Part shown: positions 1 to 59,482 of the stretch, piece after piece
Layout: every line of letters starts with the position of its first letter
Position numbering within the stretch: the stretch's first letter is position 1
Assembly (NCBI RefSeq): GCF_004348725.1
Contig: NZ_SMKR01000017.1
Coordinates: 1-60,451 of the forward strand
Source: Kribbella turkmenica
GTDB taxonomy: Bacteria; Actinomycetota; Actinomycetes; Propionibacteriales; Kribbellaceae
Direction: 5' to 3'
Length of the DNA stretch: 60,451 nt
Position numbers and translations under genes: made by a program
Notes under the pieces: model-generated
The model's input: the letters and a program-made list of their open reading frames with translations, nothing else
The model's database searches: none
What the model was told of the DNA's origin: nothing

Positions 1-1215
1 CTGGTGGACCGGGACGGTGAGCTCGCCGGTCGGGCCGCTGAGGACGACGGTTGCGTCGCCGTCCGGAGGACCGCCGGCGCGGACGCGGATCAGCGGGCCG
101 TCCTGTTCGAGCTTGAGCCACTCGGCAGTGGACGACGCCACGGCGGTCAGAGCGAGTGGCGGTCCCTCCAACCGTAGTTCGGCCGCGCCCGCCGGACCAA
201 GGTCCAGCTCGGCCGGTGTCGCCCGCGGCACGCCTTGCTCGAGTGCCTCCGCGGCCGCCAGCGCGACCCGTCGGCTGTCGTCGTCCACCATCGGGCCCAG
301 CGCCTGCCACGCGGCGTACGCCTGACTCAGATCGCTGCCGACGAGTCGCTCACGCAGGTAGTCGACCACGCCGAACCTTGCGGCCGGCAACGGACTGGCC
401 ATCGCCTCCAACAGCTCTGGCGCCAGCGGTGCCGGGGTGATCCGCCGGATCCGGCTGCGGGCGATCAGCAGCTCGCCCTGCGAGCCGAACGTCCACATCT
501 GCGGATTCTGGTTGGGCGTCACCCGGCGGACCCGGTCGGAGACGTACCCGACCAGCTCGGTCAGGCCCACCCAGCCGTCACCGTCGCGGTCGGCCTCACC
601 GGTCGACAGCCCGTCCACGACCGCACTGGTGAACACCGACGGTGCCGACGCGTCCGACGCCAGCTGTCCGCCCTCGAAGGCGTACTCCATCGCGCTCGAC
701 GCCGTCACCACCACTCGCCCGCGTCCACCGCCGACTTCCTCCTGCCCCGCGAAGACGTCCCGCACCTGCGCCTCACCGGCCGCGCGCACGACCATCCCGC
801 GCGGAAAAGCACCTCCGTAGCAACAATCCAGGAACAGCGCGATCCGCTGCGCTCGGCTGTCGGCCATCTGCCGGTTGACGAAGTCGGCCGCCACCGCGGT
901 CGAGGCCAGCCGCGTCGGCTTGGTGTCCGCGACGGCCAGGAACAGTTCGCCCGCCGCGTTCTTCAGGCCGTGGCAGGAGAAGTGCAGCATCAGCAGGTCC
1001 TCGGGTGCCCGGTCGGCGAAGAAGTCCTCCACGGCGAGCCTGATCTCCTGCGCGGCGGCGTTGCGCATGACCTGCACCTCGAACCCGCCGACCGACGGGT
1101 CCGCGAGCACCTCGGCCAAGGCGGCCGCGTCCTGCGCCGGCGCGACCAGGCTGCGCAGGCCGGCGTCGTCGTACTGGTCGTTCGCTATCACTAGCGCGAC
1201 GCGAGAGCCGTCCAT
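1..1215 (-). CDS. Caspase-like (peptidase C14) protein, C-terminus beyond window
   Basis: The gene runs leftward off the window, so only the first 405 residues are visible. The N-terminal half has the caspase fold signature: LMLHFSCHG with the catalytic His at about residue 82, and FLDCCYGG with the nucleophile Cys at about 132. Residues ~300-350 look helical and HEAT-like, followed by a beta-rich tail. The reading frame stays open to base 1. ATG at 1215 (MDGSRVALVIAN) has GGGGCGG about 8 nt upstream; an in-frame ATG at 1224 is an alternative that would overlap the upstream stop. The gene lies 1 nt after an EACC1-like gene, the arrangement known for EACC1-associated caspases of actinobacterial conflict systems. 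A protease effector role is inferred; the substrate is unknown. Confidence 0.85.
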   Translation of the reverse strand, partial: MDGSRVALVIANDQYDDAGLRSLVAPAQDAAALAEVLADPSVGGFEVQVMRNAAAQEIRLAVEDFFADRAPEDLLMLHFSCHGLKNAAGELFLAVADTKPTRLASTAVAADFVNRQMADSRAQRIALFLDCCYGGAFPRGMVVRAAGEAQVRDVFAGQEEVGGGRGRVVVTASSAMEYAFEGGQLASDASAPSVFTSAVVDGLSTGEADRDGDGWVGLTELVGYVSDRVRRVTPNQNPQMWTFGSQGELLIARSRIRRITPAPLAPELLEAMASPLPAARFGVVDYLRERLVGSDLSQAYAAWQALGPMVDDDSRRVALAAAEALEQGVPRATPAELDLGPAGAAELRLEGPPLALTAVASSTAEWLKLEQDGPLIRVRAGGPPDGDATVVLSGPTGELTVPVHQ

Positions 1216-7478: not shown

Positions 7479-8588
7479 TCACGCGCTGAAGACAACCTTG
7501 CCACGCAACAGGATCACCCGGGGGTGGGTGAGGACGGCCGGGTTCGTTCGCGGATCCTCGTCGTACACCACCAGATCGGCCGGGTCGCCCGGCTGCAACG
7601 TGCTGGGGACCCCCAGCCAGTCGCGCGCCGCCCACGATCCGGCGGCCAGTGCCTGCTCCCCCGACATGCCGATCGACGTCAGCGCCTGGATCTCCTGGGC
7701 CACCAGTCCGTGCCCGAGCACGCCACCCGCATCGGTCCCGGCGTACACCGGTACGCCGGCCTCGTAGGCGTCGCGGAGTCGCTCGAGGCGGCGGTCGTAC
7801 AGGTCGCGCATGTGCGCCGAGTACACCGGGAACTTCGCGGCGGCCTGGTCGGCGTACTCCGGGAAGTTCTCCAACTGGATCAGCGTCGGGACCACGGCGA
7901 CGCCGCGCCCGGCCAGCTGGCCGAGCATGTCCGGAAGCACCCCGGTGCCGTGCTCGATGCAGTCGATGCCGGCGGCCAGCAGGTCGGGAAGGGCGTGCTC
8001 ACCGAACACGTGCGCGGTGACCCGGGCACCGAGGTCGTGAGCCCGCGCGATCGCCGCATCCAAAGCCTCCGCGGGCCAGCAGGCGGTCAGGTCCCCGGCG
8101 TCCCGGTCGATCCAGTCGCCGACCAGCTTCACCCAGCCGTCACCGCGGCGGGCCTCCTGCTCGACGTACGCGACCAGTTCGTCCGGCTCGATCTCCCAGC
8201 CGTAGTTGCGGATGTAGCGCTTGGAGCGGGCGATGTGCCGGCCGGCCCGGATGATCTTCGGCAGGTCCTCGCGGTCGTCGATCCACCGGGTGTCCGCGGC
8301 CGAGCCCGCATCCCGGACCAGCAGCGCGCCGGCCTCCCGGTCGGCGATCGCCTGCTGCTCCTGGGTCTCCCGGTCGACGGCACCGTGCTGGTCCAGGCCG
8401 ATGTGGCAGTGCGCGTCGACCAGGCCGGGCACGATCCAGCCGCCGGTGTGCACGGTGCTGACATCGGCAGCGGTGGGCCGGTCGACGACCAGCCCACCGC
8501 TGAGGTGGAGTTCCTGCCGCTCGCCGGCCGGCAACACCGTGCCGACGAGCCTGAGTACGCCCCTGTCTGTCAGTGCACTGTCCGTCAT
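7479..8588 (-). CDS. Amidohydrolase-superfamily metal-dependent hydrolase
   Basis: 369 residues without signal peptide. It has the imidazolonepropionase/dihydroorotase-like TIM barrel with the metal motif VDAHCHIGL near residue 60, a His strand RVTAHVFGEHALPD, IEHGTG and the late GTDAGG motif (catalytic Asp). The flanking beta-sandwich is built from the N- and C-termini (VLRLVGTVL ... GDPADLVVYDEDP). It hydrolyses an amide or imide bond in a small cyclic or peptidic substrate; the substrate cannot be told from sequence. It is 24 nt downstream of nothing in its direction and 25 nt from the transglycosylase stop, so it may be read from the upstream transglycosylase promoter. Confidence 0.85.
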   Translation of the reverse strand: MTDSALTDRGVLRLVGTVLPAGERQELHLSGGLVVDRPTAADVSTVHTGGWIVPGLVDAHCHIGLDQHGAVDRETQEQQAIADREAGALLVRDAGSAADTRWIDDREDLPKIIRAGRHIARSKRYIRNYGWEIEPDELVAYVEQEARRGDGWVKLVGDWIDRDAGDLTACWPAEALDAAIARAHDLGARVTAHVFGEHALPDLLAAGIDCIEHGTGVLPDMLGQLAGRGVAVVPTLIQLENFPEYADQAAAKFPVYSAHMRDLYDRRLERLRDAYEAGVPVYAGTDAGGVLGHGLVAQEIQALTSIGMSGEQALAAGSWAARDWLGVPSTLQPGDPADLVVYDEDPRTNPAVLTHPRVILLRGKVVFSA

Positions 8589-8612
8589 ACCGCGACGTTA
8601 ACCGGCTGTGTG

Positions 8613-9860
8613 TCAGCCGTGCGAGCCGCCGCCCGGCGTGCAGGTCGGCGTGGTCGGGTCGGTGCTTGCGCACGGCGAACTGGTCGGCGTGTCCGACGGG
8701 GTCGGAGTCGGCGTCGGGGTCGGCGTCGGCGTGGGGGTCGGCGTCGGCGTCGGCGTGGGAGTCGGCTTCGGGGTCGGCGTCGGACGCGTCGTCGGCCGGG
8801 TCGGCTTGTGCGTCGGCTCCTTGGTCGGCGTGTCCGCCGGGTCCGGCACGGTCGGCTCGTGCGTCGTCGTCGCCGGCGCGGTCGGCTTCGGCGTCGCCGA
8901 CGTCGACGTCGCCGTCGCCGGCTTGTCGTCCGCGACGTCCGGCACCTCGCGCGGGTCCACCTTGCGCTCGGCGTTGCCGCTCGACCTGGCGACCGACAGG
9001 CTGCCCTTCTCGTTCGGGATGAGCACCGCGTTCTTGCTGTAGACCCGCATCCACTTCAGCACGGTGGCGACGAAGTCCTTGGAGTGCTGGTACCGCAGCA
9101 GGGACGCGACCAGGTCCCGCGGGCTCTTCAGGTCGCCGCCCTCGGAGCACAGGTACACCGCGACCGTGGTGACCGCGTCGTACACGTTGTTCGGGTTGCG
9201 GAAGCCGTCACCGTTGCCGTCGGCGCCGAACTCGGTCCACACCTGCGGGATGATCTGCATCGGCCCGACGGCCCGGTCCCAGGTGAGGTCGCCGTCGTAC
9301 CGGCCCTTGTCGGAGTCGGTGATCCGGCCGTTGCCGCCGCGGCCGTTCAGCACCGGGCCGAGGATCTTCCCCCGGGTGGTGCCGGCCACGTCGACCCGGC
9401 CGCCGCTGGCGTGGTCGGACTCGACCTTGCCGATCCCGGCCAGCAACGGCCAGGTGAGACCACAGTTCGGCCGGACCACGGCGAGATTCGCGGTGGCGCG
9501 GCGGTAGGCGGGGAAAACCCCGCGCGGGATGCCGTTGACGGCACCTGGTCGTCCCGGCCGGACCACGGACCGGCCGTCGGTCGCACCCTGCACGGGCACG
9601 TCGGCACGGGCAGGCTTGTCCGAACCGAGCCGGCCGTCCACTCCGGGACGCTGCGGAACGATCATCGTCAGTTCGTCGAACTCACCGCTGTTGAGCCCGG
9701 CTCCAGGCGACGGAGCGACCGGACTGTCCGCCGCGAGCCGGCCGGAGGCACCGGCCCCGCCCGAGGCGACTGTCACGATGGCCCCGACCAGGAGCGGGGC
9801 CGTGCACAGTGAAGCGATGATGATTTTGACCCGACGGTTACCACTACGGGTTAGGCGCAT
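8613..9860 (-). CDS. Secreted lytic transglycosylase (SLT_2/MltB-like) with Pro-Thr tail
   Basis: 415 residues. A membrane signal segment (about 12-36), a linker, then the SLT domain at about 120-260: TWPLLAGIGKVESDHASGG with catalytic Glu, WDRAVGPMQIIPQVWTEFG, YDAVTTVAVYLCSEGG. It cleaves the MurNAc-GlcNAc bond of peptidoglycan to the anhydro product. The C-terminal 100 residues are a Pro/Thr tail, with about twelve PT dipeptides, ending in a Cys pair (SPCASTDPTTPTCTPGGG). ATG 9860 follows GAGGGG. A paralogue lies immediately upstream in the same direction, suggesting tandem duplication. The Pro/Thr tail could span the wall or be glycosylated (inference). Confidence 0.88.
   Translation of the reverse strand: MRLTRSGNRRVKIIIASLCTAPLLVGAIVTVASGGAGASGRLAADSPVAPSPGAGLNSGEFDELTMIVPQRPGVDGRLGSDKPARADVPVQGATDGRSVVRPGRPGAVNGIPRGVFPAYRRATANLAVVRPNCGLTWPLLAGIGKVESDHASGGRVDVAGTTRGKILGPVLNGRGGNGRITDSDKGRYDGDLTWDRAVGPMQIIPQVWTEFGADGNGDGFRNPNNVYDAVTTVAVYLCSEGGDLKSPRDLVASLLRYQHSKDFVATVLKWMRVYSKNAVLIPNEKGSLSVARSSGNAERKVDPREVPDVADDKPATATSTSATPKPTAPATTTHEPTVPDPADTPTKEPTHKPTRPTTRPTPTPKPTPTPTPTPTPTPTPTPTPTPTPSDTPTSSPCASTDPTTPTCTPGGGSHG
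8692..8790. repeat. Low-complexity GTCGGC-type hexanucleotide repeat
   Basis: A run of GTCGGn hexamers (GTCGGC/GTCGGG/GTGGGn) encodes the Pro-Thr tail of the transglycosylase on the other strand. Length could vary by slippage. Confidence 0.8.
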
Positions 9861-9886
9861 AGTCCCCTCAACGATCCATACGCCAG

Positions 9887-9915
9887 AAAGTTACATCAAG
9901 ACGACGCAAAGTTAC
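9887..9915 (-). promoter_or_regulatory. Direct repeat GTAACTTT upstream of transglycosylase
   Basis: On the minus strand GTAACTTT occurs at 9908-9915 and 9887-9894, exactly 21 bp apart (two helical turns), about 30-55 nt upstream of the transglycosylase ATG. GTAAC direct repeats are reminiscent of sites bound by the wall regulator MtrA, whose known targets include wall hydrolases. The assignment is tentative. Confidence 0.35.
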
Positions 9916-9983
9916 CTGAGCCGCCAACACACCTGACAACGGGCGCCGTTCCCGCCTGGATCCGGCCGTTCCGGGCGCGCGGA

Positions 9984-10010
9984 CCGGGGTAACCTGCCCG
10001 GTTACCCCGG
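9984..10010. terminator. Inverted repeat after the second transglycosylase gene
   Basis: CCGGGGTAAC (9984-9993) and GTTACCCCGG (10001-10010) pair perfectly over 10 bp around a 7-nt loop, 21 nt past the stop of the leftward upstream gene. It is probably a U-less terminator; an operator is possible because the arms contain GTAAC. Confidence 0.6.
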
Positions 10011-51857: not shown

Positions 51858-51893
51858 GATTCTCCGTGTTCAGGGTCGTGACACCGACAGACC

Positions 51894-51922
51894 ATGTTAC
51901 ATGGGCGCCTCTGCACGACCAA
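51894..51922 (-). promoter_or_regulatory. rpmB promoter
   Basis: Minus strand TTGGTC (51917-51922), 17-nt spacer, TAACAT (51894-51899), about 37 nt upstream of the start. Confidence 0.65.
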
Positions 51923-51940
51923 TTCGGCGTCAGGCTCGGA

Positions 51941-53923
51941 TCACTGCGTGAGCCAGGCCACTTCCTCGGGGGTGAGTTCGACCGACAGGCCCGGCATCGA
52001 GGTCCGGGTCTCGCTGATGTGGCGGGGCCCGATCAGCGGGAACACCGGGTACGGCTGGTGCAGCAGCCAGGCCAAGGCTATCGCGGTCGGTTCGACGCCC
52101 TTGGCGGCGGCCAGTTCGCGGGCCCGGTCGAGCCGGCGGAAGTTCTCGTCGGAGTAGAAGCAGCGGACGAGTTCCTCGTCGGAGCGGTCCGCCGGCTTCG
52201 CCCGGCCGGTGAAGAACCCGCGGGCCTGGCTCGACCACGGGAACAGGGCGACCTGCCGCTCCCGCAACCACACCTGCGACTCGTCGTCGGCGACGTGCCG
52301 GCACCCGGCCCACGGGACGTCGTACGCCCGGGCGAGGCTGAGGTGGTTGCTGAGCAACGTGAACGGCTGCTTGCCGTTGGCCTCGGCGTACGCGTTCGCC
52401 TCGTCGAACCGTTCCAGCGACCAGTTGGAGCCGCCGAACGCCTTGATCCGGCCGGCCTTGAAGTGCTCGTGCAGGACGTCGACGAACTCGCCGACCGCGA
52501 TCTCCTCGTTGTCGCGGTGCATCAGGTAGAGGTCGACGTGGTCGGTCTGCAACCGTTCGAGGCTCTCGGTCAGCTGCCGGGTGATCGACTCCGGGTCGCA
52601 GTGCGGGGTGTGCGCCCCCTTGCCGATGACGACGACCTGGTCGCGGTTGCCGCGGGACCTCATCCACTGGCCGAGCAGCTTCTCGCCGCGTCCGCGTCCG
52701 TAGATGTACGCCGTGTCGAACGTCGTACCGCCGCGCTCGACGAAGTCGTCGAAGATCGCCGCCGCGTGCGTCAGCGTCTCCTGGTTGTCGACGCCCATCA
52801 CGAGCCTCGACACGTCCTTGTCGAGTCCCGCGACGCGCCCGTACTTCATCGGTGCGCCTGGTTTGCGGGCCAGCGGCCGGCCGGTCGCGGTCGGGATGAT
52901 CGCGTCGTCCCGCTCGCTCGCGTACTGCTGGCCGATCGCCTTCCGCCAGGCGTCCTGGACGGTGAGGTTGCCGAGGGTGTCGGCCCAGGTCATCTCCGGT
53001 GCCTGCCGCTGCTCGATCGCGGCCGCGACCGCCTCGGCCTCGGCGGCGTAGATGAGGGCCGGCTCCGCCGAGATGTCCCGCGGCTCCTCCCCCACCTTGT
53101 GCAAGGTGACGTGGGTGGGCTCGCCGTCGCCGCCGAACCACGGGTCCTCGACGACGAGGTACCCCTCGCTGCCGTAGATGCGGACCTGGTTGTCGTCGCG
53201 CAGCCGGACGCCGGTGCTGACCTGGGCGGTCACGCCGCCCTCGAAGAACAGGGTCGCGACCGACCACTCGTCGGCGCCGGTCTCGCCGACGTGCCCGACC
53301 GCGGTCACGGCGGCCGGCTCGGCGTACGGCTGCCCGGTCGCGGCGCCGGCGACCAGGCGGGCCATCGACACCGGGTAGCCGCCGACGTCGAGGATGCCGC
53401 CGCCGGCCAGTTCGTCGGCGAAGATCCGGCTCTCCGGCCGGAACGACGAGGCGAACGCGAAGGTGGCCTGGATCTGGTGGACGGTGCCGAGCTCGCCGTC
53501 GCCGACCAGCTGGGCGATCAGCTTGGTCTGCGGCAGGCAGCGGTACATGTACGCCTCCATCAGGAAGACGTCGTTCGCGACCGCGGCCTCGATCATCGCC
53601 TCGGCCCAGGCCTTGTTGATCGCCAGCGGCTTCTCGCACAGCACGTGCTTGCCGGCCTCGGCGGTCCGGATCGCCCACTCGACGTGCATCGGGTGCGGGG
53701 TGGCGATGTAGACCGCGTCCACGTCCGGGTCGGCGAGCAGGTCGTCGTACGACCCGTGCCGGTTGGTGATGTTCCACTTGTCGGCGAAGGCGCCGGCCGA
53801 GTCGATCGACCGGCTGCCGACGGCGACGACCTCGTTGGCCGGCGACGTCGGCACCTGACTGGCGAACCGGGAGGCGATGTTCCCGGTGCCGATGATGCCC
53901 CAGCGGAGCTTGGTCTGAGTCAA
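51941..53923 (-). CDS. Fused Gfo/Idh/MocA oxidoreductase-aldo/keto reductase
   Basis: 660 residues. Residues 1-~335 are a Gfo/Idh/MocA oxidoreductase (WGIIGTGNIASRFA Rossmann; HVLCEKPLA Lys-Pro; AGGGILDVGGYPV). Residues ~345-660 are an aldo/keto reductase with the tetrad Asp-Tyr-Lys-His: TTFDTAYIYGRG, VVIGKGAH, YLMHRD. The join is KYGRVAGLDKDVSRL, a short link. Each half has its full motifs, so a two-step sugar or inositol redox path on one chain is likely. It is the last gene of the ABC operon (31 nt after the permease), so the imported sugar is the likely substrate. Confidence 0.88.
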   Translation of the reverse strand: MTQTKLRWGIIGTGNIASRFASQVPTSPANEVVAVGSRSIDSAGAFADKWNITNRHGSYDDLLADPDVDAVYIATPHPMHVEWAIRTAEAGKHVLCEKPLAINKAWAEAMIEAAVANDVFLMEAYMYRCLPQTKLIAQLVGDGELGTVHQIQATFAFASSFRPESRIFADELAGGGILDVGGYPVSMARLVAGAATGQPYAEPAAVTAVGHVGETGADEWSVATLFFEGGVTAQVSTGVRLRDDNQVRIYGSEGYLVVEDPWFGGDGEPTHVTLHKVGEEPRDISAEPALIYAAEAEAVAAAIEQRQAPEMTWADTLGNLTVQDAWRKAIGQQYASERDDAIIPTATGRPLARKPGAPMKYGRVAGLDKDVSRLVMGVDNQETLTHAAAIFDDFVERGGTTFDTAYIYGRGRGEKLLGQWMRSRGNRDQVVVIGKGAHTPHCDPESITRQLTESLERLQTDHVDLYLMHRDNEEIAVGEFVDVLHEHFKAGRIKAFGGSNWSLERFDEANAYAEANGKQPFTLLSNHLSLARAYDVPWAGCRHVADDESQVWLRERQVALFPWSSQARGFFTGRAKPADRSDEELVRCFYSDENFRRLDRARELAAAKGVEPTAIALAWLLHQPYPVFPLIGPRHISETRTSMPGLSVELTPEEVAWLTQ

Positions 53924-53954
53924 AGTATGTCCCGTGGTCGTTGGCAGGGTGGGG

Positions 53955-54782
53955 TCAGAACTTCATGGCGCCGGCGGCGATGTCGGCGATGAAGTGACGG
54001 CCGCCGATGATGAAGACGCCGATCAGCGGGATGACGCTCATCAGGGCACCGGCCATCACCATCGAGTAGTCGGTGCCGTAGATGCCGTTCAGCTGCTGCA
54101 GGGCGACCTGGAGCGGCAGCTTGTTCGGATCCGTCATCACGATCAGCGGCCAGAGGTAGTCGTTCCACACGTTGATGAAGGTGAAGATACCCAGGAAGGC
54201 CAAGCCGGGCCGGAGCACCGGGATGCCGACGGTGAGGTACTGCCGGAAGAATCCGGCGCCGTCCACCTTGGCCGCGGAGATGAGCTCGTCGGGGATCGCG
54301 CCGCGGGCGTACTGGCGCATCCAGAAGATCCCGAACGCGTTCGCCGCGCCCGGGATGATCAGGGCCTTCAGCGACCCGATCCAGCCGAACTCGGCGAGCG
54401 TCACGAACTGCGGCACCAGCGACAGCTGGGCCGGGATCATGAACGTTGCCAGCAGCAAACCGAAGAGCCAGTCCCGGCCGGGGAACTCGTACTTCGCGAA
54501 CGCGAAGGCCGCCAGCGAGTCGAAGAACAGCACGAGCACGGTGACCGCGAGCGAGACGACCAGGGTGATCATCATCGACCCGAAGAAGTCGATGTTGTCG
54601 AGCACCTTGCCCATGTTCTCGAACAGGTGCGGGCCGATCACCAGCTTCGGCGGGTAGCTGAAGATGTCCGGGGTGGTGTTCGAGGCCATCACCACCATCC
54701 AGTAGAACGGGAAGATCGAGAGCACCACGCCGAACATCAGCACGACGTGGCTGATCACGTTACGGGTCCGCTCAGCGCGCAT
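53955..54782 (-). CDS. Carbohydrate ABC transporter permease (MalG type)
   Basis: 275 residues from ATG 54782 (MRAERTRNVISHVV), with AAGGAG 7 nt upstream; the frame to 54845 runs inside the other permease. Six hydrophobic helices; EAA loop ELISAAKVDGAGFFRQY. It overlaps the MalF-type permease by 11 nt. It forms the channel with that permease. No ATPase gene is present here, so one from elsewhere (MsiK-like) is needed. Confidence 0.92.
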   Translation of the reverse strand: MRAERTRNVISHVVLMFGVVLSIFPFYWMVVMASNTTPDIFSYPPKLVIGPHLFENMGKVLDNIDFFGSMMITLVVSLAVTVLVLFFDSLAAFAFAKYEFPGRDWLFGLLLATFMIPAQLSLVPQFVTLAEFGWIGSLKALIIPGAANAFGIFWMRQYARGAIPDELISAAKVDGAGFFRQYLTVGIPVLRPGLAFLGIFTFINVWNDYLWPLIVMTDPNKLPLQVALQQLNGIYGTDYSMVMAGALMSVIPLIGVFIIGGRHFIADIAAGAMKF

Positions 54783-55773
54783 CGGCGTTCTCCTTCCCGG
54801 TCGCGACCCGGCGGGCGGTCCGGCGGGCAGTCCGCTCGTCCCCACCGCCGATCAGCCGCCAGTTGACGATGCTGAACAGCACGATCAGGATGAACAGCGC
54901 CCAGCCGATCGCGGCGCCGTACCCGAACTGGTTGTCCAGGAACGCGCTCTCGTACAGGTAGGACACGATCGTCATCCCGGAGCCGCCGGGGCCGCCGGTG
55001 TCACCCAGCAGCACCTGGGACTCGGTGAAGATCTGCAGGCCGCCGATGGTGGAGGTGACCGCGGTGAACAGGATCACCGGGCGCAGCAGCGGGACGGTGA
55101 TCCGCCAGAAGGTCTGCCGCGGTGAGGCGCCGTCGACCTTGGCGGCCTCGTAGACGTCGTTCGAGATGGCCTGGAGGCCGGCCAGGAAGATGATCGCGTT
55201 GTAGCCGACCCAGCGCCAGGTGACGATGGTGGCAATGGCGATCTTGATCCCCCAGGGCTGGGTGAGCCACTCGATCTTGGTCACGCCGATCGACTGCAGG
55301 AACGCGTTCAGCAGGCCGAAGTTGTTGCTGAAGATCGAGCCGAACACCATCGTGACGGCGACGATCGAGGTGACGTTGGGGATGAAGTAGGCGATCCGGT
55401 AGAAGCTGCGGAACCGGGTGGCGTTGTGCAGCGCGTTGGCGATCACCAGCGCGAGCAGCAGCATCGGCACGGTCGACAGCACCCAGATGATGAGCGTGTT
55501 CCCGATCGACTGCCAGAACTTCGGGTCGGCGAGCAGGTAGCTGTACTGCTCCAGGCCGACCCACTTCATCTCGCCGATGCCGTCCCAGGAGTGGAACGAG
55601 ATCCAGATCGAGAACAGCACCGGGAACGCGCCGAAGATCGCGAACAGGATGAAGAACGGCGAGATCGCGGCGTACTGCGGCAGGGCCTGCCGGAACCTGC
55701 CCGGCGGTTTCGGCGGGGCCGGCTCCGCGGTGGTGCTGACCGCGGTGGGGAGGGTCTTGCTGGTCACTGCCAT
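54772..55773 (-). CDS. Carbohydrate ABC transporter permease (MalF/UgpA type)
   Basis: 333 residues. Six membrane helices start at about residue 32 (YAAISPFFILFAIFGAFPVLF). EAA loop DVYEAAKVDGASPRQTFWRI. The final Arg-rich tail (GGDERTARRTARR) overlaps the next gene. It lies 1 nt after the binding protein stop, in the same operon. Confidence 0.93.
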   Translation of the reverse strand: MAVTSKTLPTAVSTTAEPAPPKPPGRFRQALPQYAAISPFFILFAIFGAFPVLFSIWISFHSWDGIGEMKWVGLEQYSYLLADPKFWQSIGNTLIIWVLSTVPMLLLALVIANALHNATRFRSFYRIAYFIPNVTSIVAVTMVFGSIFSNNFGLLNAFLQSIGVTKIEWLTQPWGIKIAIATIVTWRWVGYNAIIFLAGLQAISNDVYEAAKVDGASPRQTFWRITVPLLRPVILFTAVTSTIGGLQIFTESQVLLGDTGGPGGSGMTIVSYLYESAFLDNQFGYGAAIGWALFILIVLFSIVNWRLIGGGDERTARRTARRVATGKENADAR

Positions 55774-55774
55774 C

Positions 55775-57058
55775 TCAGATCGCCCCCGCTCGGGTGAGTT
55801 CGCGTTCGATCTGTTCCTGGGCGTCGGCCCACGCCAGGTCGGGCGACTTGCCGGCGGTCTCGACGTTCACGAGCTCGGCGGCGATCGGGGCGCCGATGAT
55901 CGAGTCGTACGGGCTGAAGTAGGCGCCGGGGTACTTCTTGGCGGAGGCGCCAAAGACGTCGACGATCCGCTGACCGCCGAAGAACGGGTCCGGAGCGGTC
56001 ATCCGCTCGTCGGTGTAGCTGGCCGGCGTGGAGGGGAACAGCACCGGGTCCAGGAAGGCCTGCGCCTGGTTCTTCGCCGACTCCAGCCAGCTGATGAACG
56101 CGAACGCGGCCTCCGGGTTCTTGCAGTACTTCGTGATCGCCAGGAACGACCCGCCGCGGTTGCCGGCCCCACCAGGAGCGGCCGTCACCCGCCAGAGTCC
56201 CTTGGTCTTCGGAGCCGCGTTCTTCGGGCCGAGCTGGGCCCACCACACGGCCGCGTTGTAGGCGACCAGCTTGCCGTTGGTGACGACGGCGTCGGCGTCG
56301 GTCGTGTCCTGCTGCGCGTTCGCGGACAGCCCTTCCTTGACCACCCGGATCGCGAGGTCGAACTGCTCGCGGATGTGGTCCTGGTCGCCGATGTACTGAC
56401 CATCCTCGGTCATGTACCGCTTCGACTGCTGCGCCAGCGCGTAGAGGTAGACGCCGGTGATGTTGTCGGTGATGGCGGACCCCGGGACCGCCGCCTTGAG
56501 CTTCTTGCCGAGCTCGATGTAGGCGTCCCAGGTCGGTGCCAGCTCGGCGACCGCCGCGGGGTCGGTGTCGATCCCGGCCTTCTGCAGCATGTCGGTGCGG
56601 TAGAACAGCGCGGTCGGGCCGGTGTCCATCGGGTAGGCCATCATCTTGCCGTCGGCCGTGATCCCGAGCTTCCACTTCCACGCCAGGAACTCGGACTCGC
56701 GGTCCTTCGCGCCGAGCTCGTTGAGGTCGTGGAACTGGTCGGCGTTCGGGAAGTACGTCGCCACGTCGTCGTTGATGGCGACGATGTCCGGGACCAGCGA
56801 CTTGCCGGCCAGCGAGGTCAGCACCTTGGTCTTGTAGTTGGTGCCGATCCGGGTCATCGCGAGCCGCATGTCGTCGTACCCGGGGATGGCCTTCTCCGCC
56901 TGGGCGATCAGGTCGTCGTTCACCGAGCCGACCCAGGTCCACATGCTGAGCTGGTCGGATCCACCGAGCGAACTGCGGGAGCCGCAGCCGGTGAGGCCGG
57001 TCGCGGCCGCGGCGGCCCCCGCGCCGAGCGCGAGGAACTTCCTTCTGGTCACTGTCAT
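55775..57058 (-). CDS. Extracellular sugar-binding lipoprotein of ABC transporter
   Basis: 427 residues from ATG 57058 (MTVTRRKFLALGAG); the longer frame is in regulatory DNA. A Tat-like motif TRRKFL and lipobox LTGC (Cys25) indicate export as a lipoprotein. The SBP family 1 fold is seen in DQLSMWTWVGSVNDDL, LTSLAGKSLVPDIVAINDD and KLVAYNAAVWWAQLGP. It catches a sugar for the two permeases. First gene of the operon; an imperfect dyad is at 57110-57132. Confidence 0.93.
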   Translation of the reverse strand: MTVTRRKFLALGAGAAAAATGLTGCGSRSSLGGSDQLSMWTWVGSVNDDLIAQAEKAIPGYDDMRLAMTRIGTNYKTKVLTSLAGKSLVPDIVAINDDVATYFPNADQFHDLNELGAKDRESEFLAWKWKLGITADGKMMAYPMDTGPTALFYRTDMLQKAGIDTDPAAVAELAPTWDAYIELGKKLKAAVPGSAITDNITGVYLYALAQQSKRYMTEDGQYIGDQDHIREQFDLAIRVVKEGLSANAQQDTTDADAVVTNGKLVAYNAAVWWAQLGPKNAAPKTKGLWRVTAAPGGAGNRGGSFLAITKYCKNPEAAFAFISWLESAKNQAQAFLDPVLFPSTPASYTDERMTAPDPFFGGQRIVDVFGASAKKYPGAYFSPYDSIIGAPIAAELVNVETAGKSPDLAWADAQEQIERELTRAGAI

Positions 57059-57109
57059 ACGCCTCACCTGGCGCTTTCTGTTGGATTTCGCCGGAAGGTG
57101 TCCAGATAT

Positions 57110-57132
57110 GTTTACGTGGCCATTAGGTAAGC
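57110..57132. promoter_or_regulatory. Imperfect operator dyad before the sugar operon
   Basis: GTTTAC (57110-57115), 11 nt, GTAAGC (57127-57132); one mismatch. It lies between the binding-protein gene and the divergent HAD gene. Weak. Confidence 0.3.
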
Positions 57133-57212
57133 GCATACCGACTGAACCGGTCAAGGGGCCGCGGTCCCGGTGTCCGATCCTGGCCCGGTTCGCGCCTGTC
57201 AGGATGGGGCGC

Positions 57213-57815
57213 ATGATCTCCGCCGTACTCTTCGACGCCGACGGCGTCATCCAGCGCCCGACGATCGACTGGTGGTCGCGGCTGACGTCGTTCGTTCCCG
57301 CGGACTCGGGCGAGGCGTTCATCGCCGACCTGATGGCGGCCGAGCGGCCGAGCCTGGTCGGCAAGGGCGACTTCCGCGATGCGGTGGCCGGCGTCCTCGA
57401 GCGCTGGAACTCGCCGGTGGCGCTGGAGGACGCGCTCGAGCCGTGGCACTGCTTCGCGGCCGAGCCGGAGGTGGTCGCGTTGATCGCCCGACTGCGGGCG
57501 GACGGCGTCGACTGTCACCTCGCGACCAACCAGCAGCCCTACCGGCGGGCGATCATGCAGGACGAGCGCGGGTACGGCGAGTGGTTCGATCAGACCTTCT
57601 ACTCGTGCGATCTCGGGCTGGCCAAGCCTGATCCGGCGTACTTCCGGGCGATTCTCGGCGCCATCGACGTACCGGCCTCGTCGGTGCTGTTCATCGACGA
57701 CAACGAAAGCAATGTCGAGGCTGCCGCGAGCGTCGGTCTACAAGCCGAGGTCTACGACCTGTCGTCCGGTGTGGGAGCGCTCGTTGGCCTGCTTCGCCGC
57801 TACGGACTGGGCTGA
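57213..57815 (+). CDS. HAD-superfamily phosphatase
   Basis: 200 residues from ATG 57213 (MISAVLFDADGVIQ); ATG 57204 is in frame but its site is weaker. HAD motifs: FDADGVI (nucleophile Asp8, acid Asp10), HLATNQQP (motif II), KPDPAYF (Lys) and VLFIDDNESNVEAA (motif IV). The small cap domain suits a sugar-phosphate phosphatase. Divergent from the sugar operon. Confidence 0.9.
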   Translation: MISAVLFDADGVIQRPTIDWWSRLTSFVPADSGEAFIADLMAAERPSLVGKGDFRDAVAGVLERWNSPVALEDALEPWHCFAAEPEVVALIARLRADGVDCHLATNQQPYRRAIMQDERGYGEWFDQTFYSCDLGLAKPDPAYFRAILGAIDVPASSVLFIDDNESNVEAAASVGLQAEVYDLSSGVGALVGLLRRYGLG

Positions 57816-57901: not shown

Positions 57902-59482
57902 ATGTCCGATCGACGACGTCTCACCCGCCGCCATGCCCTCGGTCTGACCGCCGGCTTGGGCCTGGGCTCACTCGCTTCGTCGCTGCCCGCTCACTCAACA
58001 GCTTCTGCCGGTCGGCTGTCGGCGTACCCGAAAGGCCAGCGGCCGCAGTTGCTGAACGTGCTGGACGAGAGTTCGCTGAACTCGGCCGAACGCACGCTCG
58101 CGACCACCCTGCAGGGTCTGATGGCCCGCCGCGGGGCCGAGTCGCTGTACCTGAACATCCCCTCGCTCGGCTACCAGTTCTGGCTCGACGACCTCATCTC
58201 CCGGTACGGCGTACGTACACGGCCCGGGGACCTGTGGAAAACCGTCAGCCGGTCGGGCGTCGGCGGATATGTTCTCTTCCGTACGGGCACTCCGTCGGTC
58301 AACGTGGCGACCACGCTCGCCGGCGTGACGGGTGCCGTGGCTGTCGGGGAGAGTTTGGAGGCACTCGCGATCCGGCACGGATTGCGCAAGGTCCTGGACG
58401 TGCGGGACAAGGACGACCGCTGGGTGGTGGACAACTACTGGCCACGGTTGCGGCACGACGTCGCGATCGAGCAGAAGGCAGACATCCCGGAACGACTGCG
58501 GGACTACGTCACGATGGCGAGGACGCTCGCCTTCTACGACGGCAACTCGGCGTTCCGCGCCGAGGTGGTCGGCGCGCTCGACGACGACGCGACGGTGATC
58601 GGCTGGGGTGACGCCTCCCAGGGCGAGGACAAATTCATCGGGCCGAACTCGGACGCCGGCGTGAAGGCGATTCCGGCGGACCATGCCCGCAATCTGTCGG
58701 TGTTGTCCGGCATCACCGAGGACCGGTTGAGCCAGCGTGGAGGGGGTGGGGGGAGGGCCCTCGAACCGGATCCCGATGCCCACTACGTCACGTTCCTGAT
58801 CACCGACGGCGACAACATCCAATGGATGCTCGGCGACTTCCCCACCGACCAGCGCTGGTTCGGCAGCCCGCACCGCGGCAGTGTGGATCTGGGTTGGGGC
58901 ATCTCGCCCTCCCTGATCGACCTCGCGCCTTCGGTGATGCGCTGGTTCTACGACCAGTCCGTCAAGGATCGCTGGGTTGTCGGACCATCGGGCGGCGGCT
59001 ACATGTACCCGAGCCGCTACCCGGCTGCTGCCTTGACGAAGCACACCTCCTCCTTGGCGCAGTCGATGGCACGCGCGGATCTCTCGGCGGTGCAGATCAT
59101 CGACTTCGACTCATTCCCGGACACCCGTCTCTGGGGGAACTACCTCAAGCACCGCGAGATCGACGGCCTGATCTATCTCGAGTACTCCCGCTACGACTCC
59201 CACAAGGGAAAGGTCGTCTGGGCTGAGGGGAAGCCGGTCATCTCCGCGCGGACGATGCTGTGGGGCGGCCTCGAAGGAGCCGACGAGGCGTCGGTCACCG
59301 CCGAACTCAACAGCGCCGTTCGGAACCCGCGTTCGACTGCCGGCTACTCGGTTGTCCTGTGGCACGCCTGGAGCAAATCGGTCGACGATGTCATGACAGT
59401 CGTCAACGGCCTTGCGCCTCACGTAAAGGTCATTCCGCCGGACACCCTGGTGAAGATGGTCGGCAAGTACGCACGTCCCTGA
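57902..59482 (+). CDS. Tat-exported GxGYxYP-domain protein, putative glycoside hydrolase-like
   Basis: 526 residues with a Tat-type signal (RRRLTRRHALGLTAGLGLG) and a GxGYxYP domain: GGGYMYPSRY carries the naming motif at about 360. The N-terminal region (RPQLLNVLDESSLNSAE ...) fits the GxGYxYP N-domain, and FLITDGDNIQWML is a further conserved block. The domain is found with carbohydrate-active enzymes but no activity is proven. A Gly-rich insertion RGGGGGR interrupts about residue 280. GGAGG is 6 nt upstream of ATG. Close to HAD and the ABC operon. Confidence 0.85.
   Translation: MSDRRRLTRRHALGLTAGLGLGSLASSLPAHSTASAGRLSAYPKGQRPQLLNVLDESSLNSAERTLATTLQGLMARRGAESLYLNIPSLGYQFWLDDLISRYGVRTRPGDLWKTVSRSGVGGYVLFRTGTPSVNVATTLAGVTGAVAVGESLEALAIRHGLRKVLDVRDKDDRWVVDNYWPRLRHDVAIEQKADIPERLRDYVTMARTLAFYDGNSAFRAEVVGALDDDATVIGWGDASQGEDKFIGPNSDAGVKAIPADHARNLSVLSGITEDRLSQRGGGGGRALEPDPDAHYVTFLITDGDNIQWMLGDFPTDQRWFGSPHRGSVDLGWGISPSLIDLAPSVMRWFYDQSVKDRWVVGPSGGGYMYPSRYPAAALTKHTSSLAQSMARADLSAVQIIDFDSFPDTRLWGNYLKHREIDGLIYLEYSRYDSHKGKVVWAEGKPVISARTMLWGGLEGADEASVTAELNSAVRNPRSTAGYSVVLWHAWSKSVDDVMTVVNGLAPHVKVIPPDTLVKMVGKYARP

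Follow-up and report, generated by a model that had tools for sequence, protein, structure and literature searches.

A single gene in the Kribbella turkmenica window (the whole 60,451-nucleotide stretch of DNA that was analyzed) encodes a Gfo/Idh/MocA domain followed by an aldo/keto reductase (AKR) domain; the fusion is conserved, both of its active sites are conserved, and it frequently lies in a sugar-import context (Table 1). Distantly related bacteria have retained this fusion without loss of either active site, so the product probably carries out the conversion of an imported sugar within one protein. The reading that we favor, with a probability of roughly one half, is that of an old two-domain sugar oxidoreductase serving as the intracellular enzyme of a carbohydrate-import locus, in which oxidation would be followed by reduction and NADP(H) would be recycled. 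Fusions of redox domains are generally widespread; here two familiar kinds of enzyme are combined in a new way.

Table 1. The fused gene, its parts and the adjoining importer genes, in window positions
Feature	Positions	Strand	Description	Basis
Fused Gfo/Idh/MocA–aldo/keto reductase gene	51941..53923	-	660 aa, TTG start	Open reading frame, Pfam, homologues
Gfo/Idh/MocA half	52913..53923	-	Residues ~1-337; K98, D179, Y183; R38 cofactor signature	Pfam, fold match 5..337 to 2o48, invariance
Linker	52853..52912	-	Residues ~338-357, within the most variable region	Alignment entropy, model, fold-match limits
Aldo/keto reductase half	51944..52852	-	Residues ~358-660; tetrad D403, Y408, K435, H469	Pfam, fold match 360..660 to DepB, invariance
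Sugar ABC importer permease B	53955..54845	-	Conserved neighbor	Pfam BPD_transp_1
Sugar ABC importer permease A	54772..55773	-	Conserved neighbor	Pfam BPD_transp_1
Extracellular sugar-binding protein, open reading frame	55775..57364	-		Pfam SBP_bac_1

Pfam assigns to the N-terminal half both the Rossmann domain (GFO_IDH_MocA, PF01408; residues 6–124, 1.1e-24, 87.9 bits against a cut-off of 24) and the GFO_IDH_MocA_C-type C-terminal domain (GFO_IDH_MocA_C3, PF22725; residues 136–256, 9.4e-18, 64.8 bits against 27) of Gfo/Idh/MocA proteins, and to the C-terminal half the barrel of the aldo/keto reductase superfamily (Aldo_ket_red, PF00248; residues 384–658, 2.6e-48, 165 bits against 24), with a fold match over residues 360–660. 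None of the NCBIfam models listed for the protein reaches its cut-off: the best scores listed are those of inositol 2-dehydrogenase IolG (TIGR04380, 108.5 bits against 355) and, next, of the Gfo6 xylose dehydrogenase (101.8 bits against 350), and the equivalog of levoglucosan dehydrogenase LgdA (NF052479) stays at 93.8 bits, with a cut-off of 650. The first-pass annotation had proposed that both domains stand on one chain with intact catalytic motifs, which Pfam, a 51-sequence alignment and the predicted structure confirm. The short linker that it described is also present, but not at residues 335–345, where it had been placed; the fold limits put it at about 338–357, and the least conserved block of 20 residues is 341–360 (mean entropy 2.42 bits in the 51-sequence alignment). 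On the + strand, a 708-residue open frame (51866–53992) runs antisense over the fused gene and is taken as a shadow ORF of high-GC DNA.

A comparison of domain order across proteins, which the earlier annotation had suggested as a check, found the Gfo-then-AKR arrangement kept in the 50 other members of the 51-sequence alignment (A1), at 35–93% identity to the window protein, a persistence that carries the two-domain order far beyond chance. Within A1, E97, K98, P99, D179 and Y183 of the Gfo half are invariant (51/51), K98, D179 and Y183 being what we take to be its catalytic residues, and so are the D403, Y408, K435 and H469 tetrad of the AKR half, R38 of the former and E638 of the latter; R634 is found in 50/51, and D379, N380 and Q381 are kept in 50, 49 and 50 of the 51, respectively. 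Judged by this alignment, both active sites are under constraint. R38 belongs to an S-R pair, at the end of strand 2, that aligns with the S-R of KijD10, a protein solved with NADP, and in the AKR half, G-P-R634 is matched by a G-P-R in the alignment with the AKR 8jwk; these signatures suggest NADP(H) as the cofactor of both halves, and it is through them that the earlier proposal of one cofactor type for the two halves gains support. At the position aligned with E638 of the fused family, 8jwk carries a Q.

The AlphaFold2 model, built on the 51-sequence alignment, has high confidence along its full length (mean pLDDT 94.4, pTM 0.92), and this whole-chain model was the query for fold matching, so that the AKR half was compared as part of it. 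Top folds for the Gfo half among the matches listed are dimeric dihydrodiol dehydrogenase 2o48 (Z 43.7) and KijD10 3rc1 (Z 39.8), and its matches also include aldose-aldose oxidoreductase 5a02/5a03 (Z 38.6–38.7), the glucose-fructose oxidoreductase (GFOR) structures 1rye and 1h6d (Z 37.7 and 37.1) and inositol dehydrogenases. With the group formed by dihydrodiol dehydrogenase, KijD10 and aldose-aldose oxidoreductase it shares the fold (Z 38.6–43.7), the Lys-Asp-Tyr set known for these enzymes and, with KijD10, the S-R pair, but over the fold it is only 27–29% identical to them. For the AKR half, the top folds among the matches listed are DepB 8hwn (Z 33.4), 7utf (33.1) and Tas 1lqa (32.7), and by sequence it matches IolS 1pyf (1.7e-24). 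It resembles the DepB-type AKRs (8hwn, 7utf) and Tas in fold (Z 32.7–33.4) and has the full catalytic tetrad of these proteins and of IolS, from all of which the fused family differs by its near-invariant D379-N380-Q381 and H469-R-D-N motifs and by the added Gfo domain. No chain spanning both a Gfo and an AKR half is among the structure matches listed from sequence and fold comparison.

Among 58 genomes (the organism's own and 57 relatives), 46 matched the protein at 1e-60 and 45 carry a full-length fused copy, made up of all 37 genomes of the same genus, Kribbella, and 8/8 of another family of the same order (f4); family f2 gave one partial match with four stops in five genomes, and family f3 a match in 0/8 at 1e-60. 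The case that the first-pass annotation had named against itself, two genes joined by a stop lost in this strain only, was looked for and is excluded by the fused copies of the 37 Kribbella genomes, of the eight f4 genomes and of other phyla. With near certainty, the copies in 45/58 genomes and in other phyla also rule out a lost stop or assembly artefact in a single genome.

A wider scan of a genome collection sought patterns of the fused query and, out of 96 loci, retained the best 80, so that solo halves are under-sampled in it; these best 80 comprise 66 full-length single-ORF fusions, 5 broken or cut ones (L068, L076, L094, L096, L102), one solo AKR half (L098) and eight solo Gfo halves (L099–L101, L103–L107). 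Fused members occur in Actinomycetota (including Streptomyces), Chloroflexota, Planctomycetota, Lentisphaerota, Verrucomicrobiota, the SAR86 group of Gammaproteobacteria and rhizobia. In a plasmid collection, 202 records matched, 194 of them covering at least 80% of the protein, and 190 of the 202 are from Rhizobium or Sinorhizobium, including pSymA of Sinorhizobium meliloti 1021, where the homologue spans 1289125–1291110. A census of 246 Actinomycetota genomes drawn evenly, with four candidates per genome scored in the rows listed, gave a single match at 1e-80, the window's own. The fused gene is therefore rare in Actinomycetota outside Kribbella and family f4, though the genome-collection scan did turn up copies in a few other genera. 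Three individual records deserve mention: in L094 (Fodinicola feengrottensis, 7843–9989) the coding sequence is divided between two reading frames that overlap, through either a sequencing error or decay of the copy, and L044 (titled Streptomyces sp. SID13031) and L048 (titled Nonomuraea aurantiaca) carry copies that share 82–83% identity with the window protein, as Kribbella copies do; their organism names may be wrong.

The pairwise identities of the N- and C-terminal halves correlate closely (r = 0.96, 1275 pairs), and 26 of 45 splits are common to the trees of the two halves among fused members, from which it follows that the halves travelled together. These trees were made by a quick method after the removal of nine near-duplicate Kribbella rows, with L005 left out of the C tree and L002 and L003 out of a second N tree. 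Solo Gfo halves nest within the fused clade, with 6 label changes of which at least 4 are forced by well-supported branches; the C-half tree has 3 label changes, 1 of them forced, and by it the solo AKR halves may lie either inside or outside the fused clade. The simplest reading of these trees is an old fusion whose AKR half would have been lost repeatedly, and in the seven solo-Gfo genomes searched (L100, L101, L103–L107; mostly MAGs) a match to the AKR half at 1e-30 is absent from all seven. In Inquilinus limosus the halves are separate genes on different contigs and in two different sugar ABC operons, the AKR half (L098) following a sugar-binding protein (SBP), permeases and a GH42 gene, and the Gfo half (L119) adjoining a ROK regulator, an SBP and permeases; the match to this Gfo half extends a few codons beyond its stop. 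The recurrence of solo Gfo halves means that coupling of the two reactions, if real, is not obligatory, and their position within the fused clade, together with the separate halves of Inquilinus, argues against strict coupling.

In the window, the genes for a sugar-binding protein and two permeases precede the fused gene on one strand, and the stop of permease B lies 31 bases before its TTG start. Homologues put the true start of permease B probably near 54782, and that of the binding protein is probably near 57058, since the homologue in L060 aligns from residue 103. With 74 sugar-permease matches in its own 7.4 Mb genome, adjacency to an importer in a single genome is weak evidence, so that the argument for an association rests on its recurrence across groups. 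TIM-barrel queries taken from L063, L109 and L116, as distinct from LgdB or YcjR, matched none of the 257 ORFs of the window at 1e-4, and nothing near any Kribbella-type locus. Two further genes lie close to the importer on the + strand. One encodes a putative GxGYxYP glycoside hydrolase (57902–59482), with a homologue at 13 of 41 Kribbella loci (19 of the 41 having short flanks) and at none of the other loci searched. The other is the ORF of a HAD-family hydrolase (56838–57815), divergent from the sugar-binding protein and with a homologue at 21 Kribbella loci; because it overlaps the binding-protein ORF, its start is probably near 57213.

Beyond the window, locus counts are quoted from L028 on; L009–L027 partly repeat L028–L049 (same species in two collections, short flanks). 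Of the 22 Kribbella-type loci (L028–L049), 20, all but L044 and L048, have homologues of both permeases at most 5 kb away from the fused gene; such homologues also lie within this distance in three of six other actinobacterial loci (L050, where the reads adjoining the fused gene are permease fragments, L051 and L060; not L053, L054 and L057), in 5/6 loci of family f4 (not L122), where the importer is divergent from the fused gene and outside its operon, and in 6/7 rhizobial loci (not L113). Nineteen further non-SAR86 loci (L052, L055, L056, L058, L059, L061–L073, L076) include one with an ABC importer near the fused gene (L065) and 18 with none; most of the 19 have no sugar neighbors, the genes alongside being seemingly unrelated (URO-D, PQQ_2, DUF945, TerC, methyltransferases). 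All 21 SAR86-type loci (within L074–L097; L091 and L097 come from one MAG) combine a GPH symporter, the fused gene and a GH3 glycosidase. The symporter gene comes first, and in L084 it overlaps the start of the fused gene; the glycosidase gene is on the opposite flank.

Other enzymes accompany the fused gene in places. A TIM-barrel gene lies downstream of it in L109 (Phyllobacterium), near it in L069 and in the order TIM barrel, GH3, fused gene in L063 (Ktedonobacteraceae); an alpha-L-rhamnosidase-type gene follows it in L071, an MFS gene follows it in L056, and a GH2 gene is found 4 kb away in L121. On an Enterococcus faecium plasmid (L116, 6019–7736), an AKR-half homologue and a TIM-barrel gene are followed by an ABC importer whose permeases are 48–50% identical to those of the window, an unfused version of the same context; in Listeria, as in E. 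faecium, the AKR-half homologue adjoins a TIM barrel without fusion. The rhizobial operons L111 and L115 consist of a regulator, an SBP, two permeases, an ATPase and the fused gene, the next gene being on the other strand, so that the fused gene is the only enzyme beside the importer. The set is the same in L112, where a same-strand gene with an adenylyltransferase domain, which need not belong to the operon, lies 187 bases further on.

Since the fused protein is the only enzyme of such operons, oxidation by the Gfo half and reduction by the AKR half with NADP(H) cycling would be the simplest account. In the scheme that we infer, for substrate, carbon position, step order, cofactor recycling and channeling alike, the Gfo half would use NADP+ to convert a hydroxyl of an imported sugar or glycoside to a ketone, and the AKR half would reduce the same ketone from the other face, amounting to epimerization, or would instead act on a ketone that remains once another enzyme, a TIM-barrel protein or a glycosidase, has isomerized or cleaved the intermediate. 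NADPH produced by the Gfo half would be consumed by the AKR half, and the net result would be a redox-neutral conversion to a common sugar; that a hydride could be recycled in this way had been proposed in the first-pass annotation. Where a TIM-barrel or glycosidase gene accompanies the fused gene, isomerization or cleavage of the keto intermediate may come between oxidation and reduction. The narrower version, a one-polypeptide sugar epimerase whose Gfo half oxidizes and whose AKR half re-reduces the same sugar with internal recycling of NADP(H), is put forward tentatively and seems rather doubtful. In the Lentisphaerae MAG locus L062 (7860–11488), the fused gene shares the few bases at its end with a glucose-6-phosphate dehydrogenase (G6PD) gene; G6PD is an NADPH maker, and the fused pair may not be redox neutral in that organism.

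The overlap of the G6PD gene is also a point for the unlikely alternative that the halves act independently in the same catabolic locus, the fusion ensuring equal co-expression while each half would take its cofactor from the free pool, with no internal recycling of hydride. It would fit the two separate genes of Inquilinus, which each have a sugar ABC system of their own alongside, the several lineages with the Gfo half alone, and the AKR-half homologues of E. faecium and Listeria that stand beside a TIM barrel without fusion. Against this, the fusion persists over great evolutionary distance with both sites invariant, and its position as sole enzyme in L111 and L115 is better suited to a self-contained conversion.

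The fold matches of the Gfo half to 5a02/5a03 and to GFOR also bring to mind a dismutase of the glucose-fructose or aldose-aldose oxidoreductase type, in which the Gfo half would make a C1 lactone from an aldose and the AKR half an alditol from another sugar. In L113 a gluconolactonase-family gene does lie at a distance of about 6 kb, but no lactonase is annotated beside the fused gene in L109, L111, L112 or L115, and in the known enzymes of this type a single Gfo site, with tightly held NADP(H), suffices for oxidation and reduction alike, so that an AKR domain would be superfluous; the idea is improbable. The reverse order, in which the AKR half would reduce an aldose to an alditol and the Gfo half would oxidize the alditol to a ketose, would be consistent with the habits of the two families, since AKRs commonly reduce aldoses and Gfo enzymes oxidize polyols such as inositol, and with the inositol dehydrogenases among the Gfo-half fold matches. 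Such an oxidoreductive isomerase is nonetheless very improbable: no sugar kinase is present among the annotated or Pfam-scanned neighbors of the loci examined, and the top two AKR folds listed, DepB (8hwn) and 7utf (the latter according to its structure title), act on the mycotoxin DON, a ring ketone.

Oxidation by the Gfo half ahead of reduction by the AKR half, as in the favored reading, would have separate-gene precedents in two pathways that oxidize, process and then reduce a sugar. In the levoglucosan pathway, LgdA makes 3-keto-levoglucosan and LgdC reduces 3-keto-glucose (PMC10066097). The LgdA-LgdB1-LgdB2-LgdC system described there combines an ABC importer, a Gfo oxidation and a later keto-sugar reduction, and the fused locus can be read alike; it differs in having separate genes, a second Gfo protein as reductase and a TIM-barrel eliminase (PMC10066097). 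The glucoside-guloside interconversion by YcjS, YcjR and YcjQ of E. coli likewise places two sugar dehydrogenases and a 3-keto isomerase in an ABC-importer cluster, but these are separate proteins, and an AKR partner is not named in the portion of the article available (PMC11543891). A pathway of the Lgd or YcjQRS type has a TIM-barrel eliminase or epimerase in the same operon, which the three TIM-barrel queries did not find in the Kribbella window; a TIM barrel is present at L063, L069 and L109. Among the titles listed in searches of open-licence literature, neither a Gfo-AKR fusion nor a characterized member was found. Concerning the S. meliloti copy, the accessible sections of PMC3454389 and PMC4207669 contain nothing, and where the plasmid listing for pSymA of strain 1021 names the gene, it does so only as 'aldo/keto reductase'.

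The fusion is thus present in well-studied organisms, S. meliloti 1021 being an example, and the idea is directly testable there. If the epimerase reading is true, catabolism of a rare sugar would require no more than this protein and an ABC importer, and a single polypeptide would stand in for the two to four genes of known pathways. If coupling is real, nature would offer in the fusion a sugar epimerase that is self-sufficient and redox-neutral, of practical use in rare-sugar production, and a function would be given to a gene kept in all 37 Kribbella genomes and in SAR86, an abundant ocean lineage.
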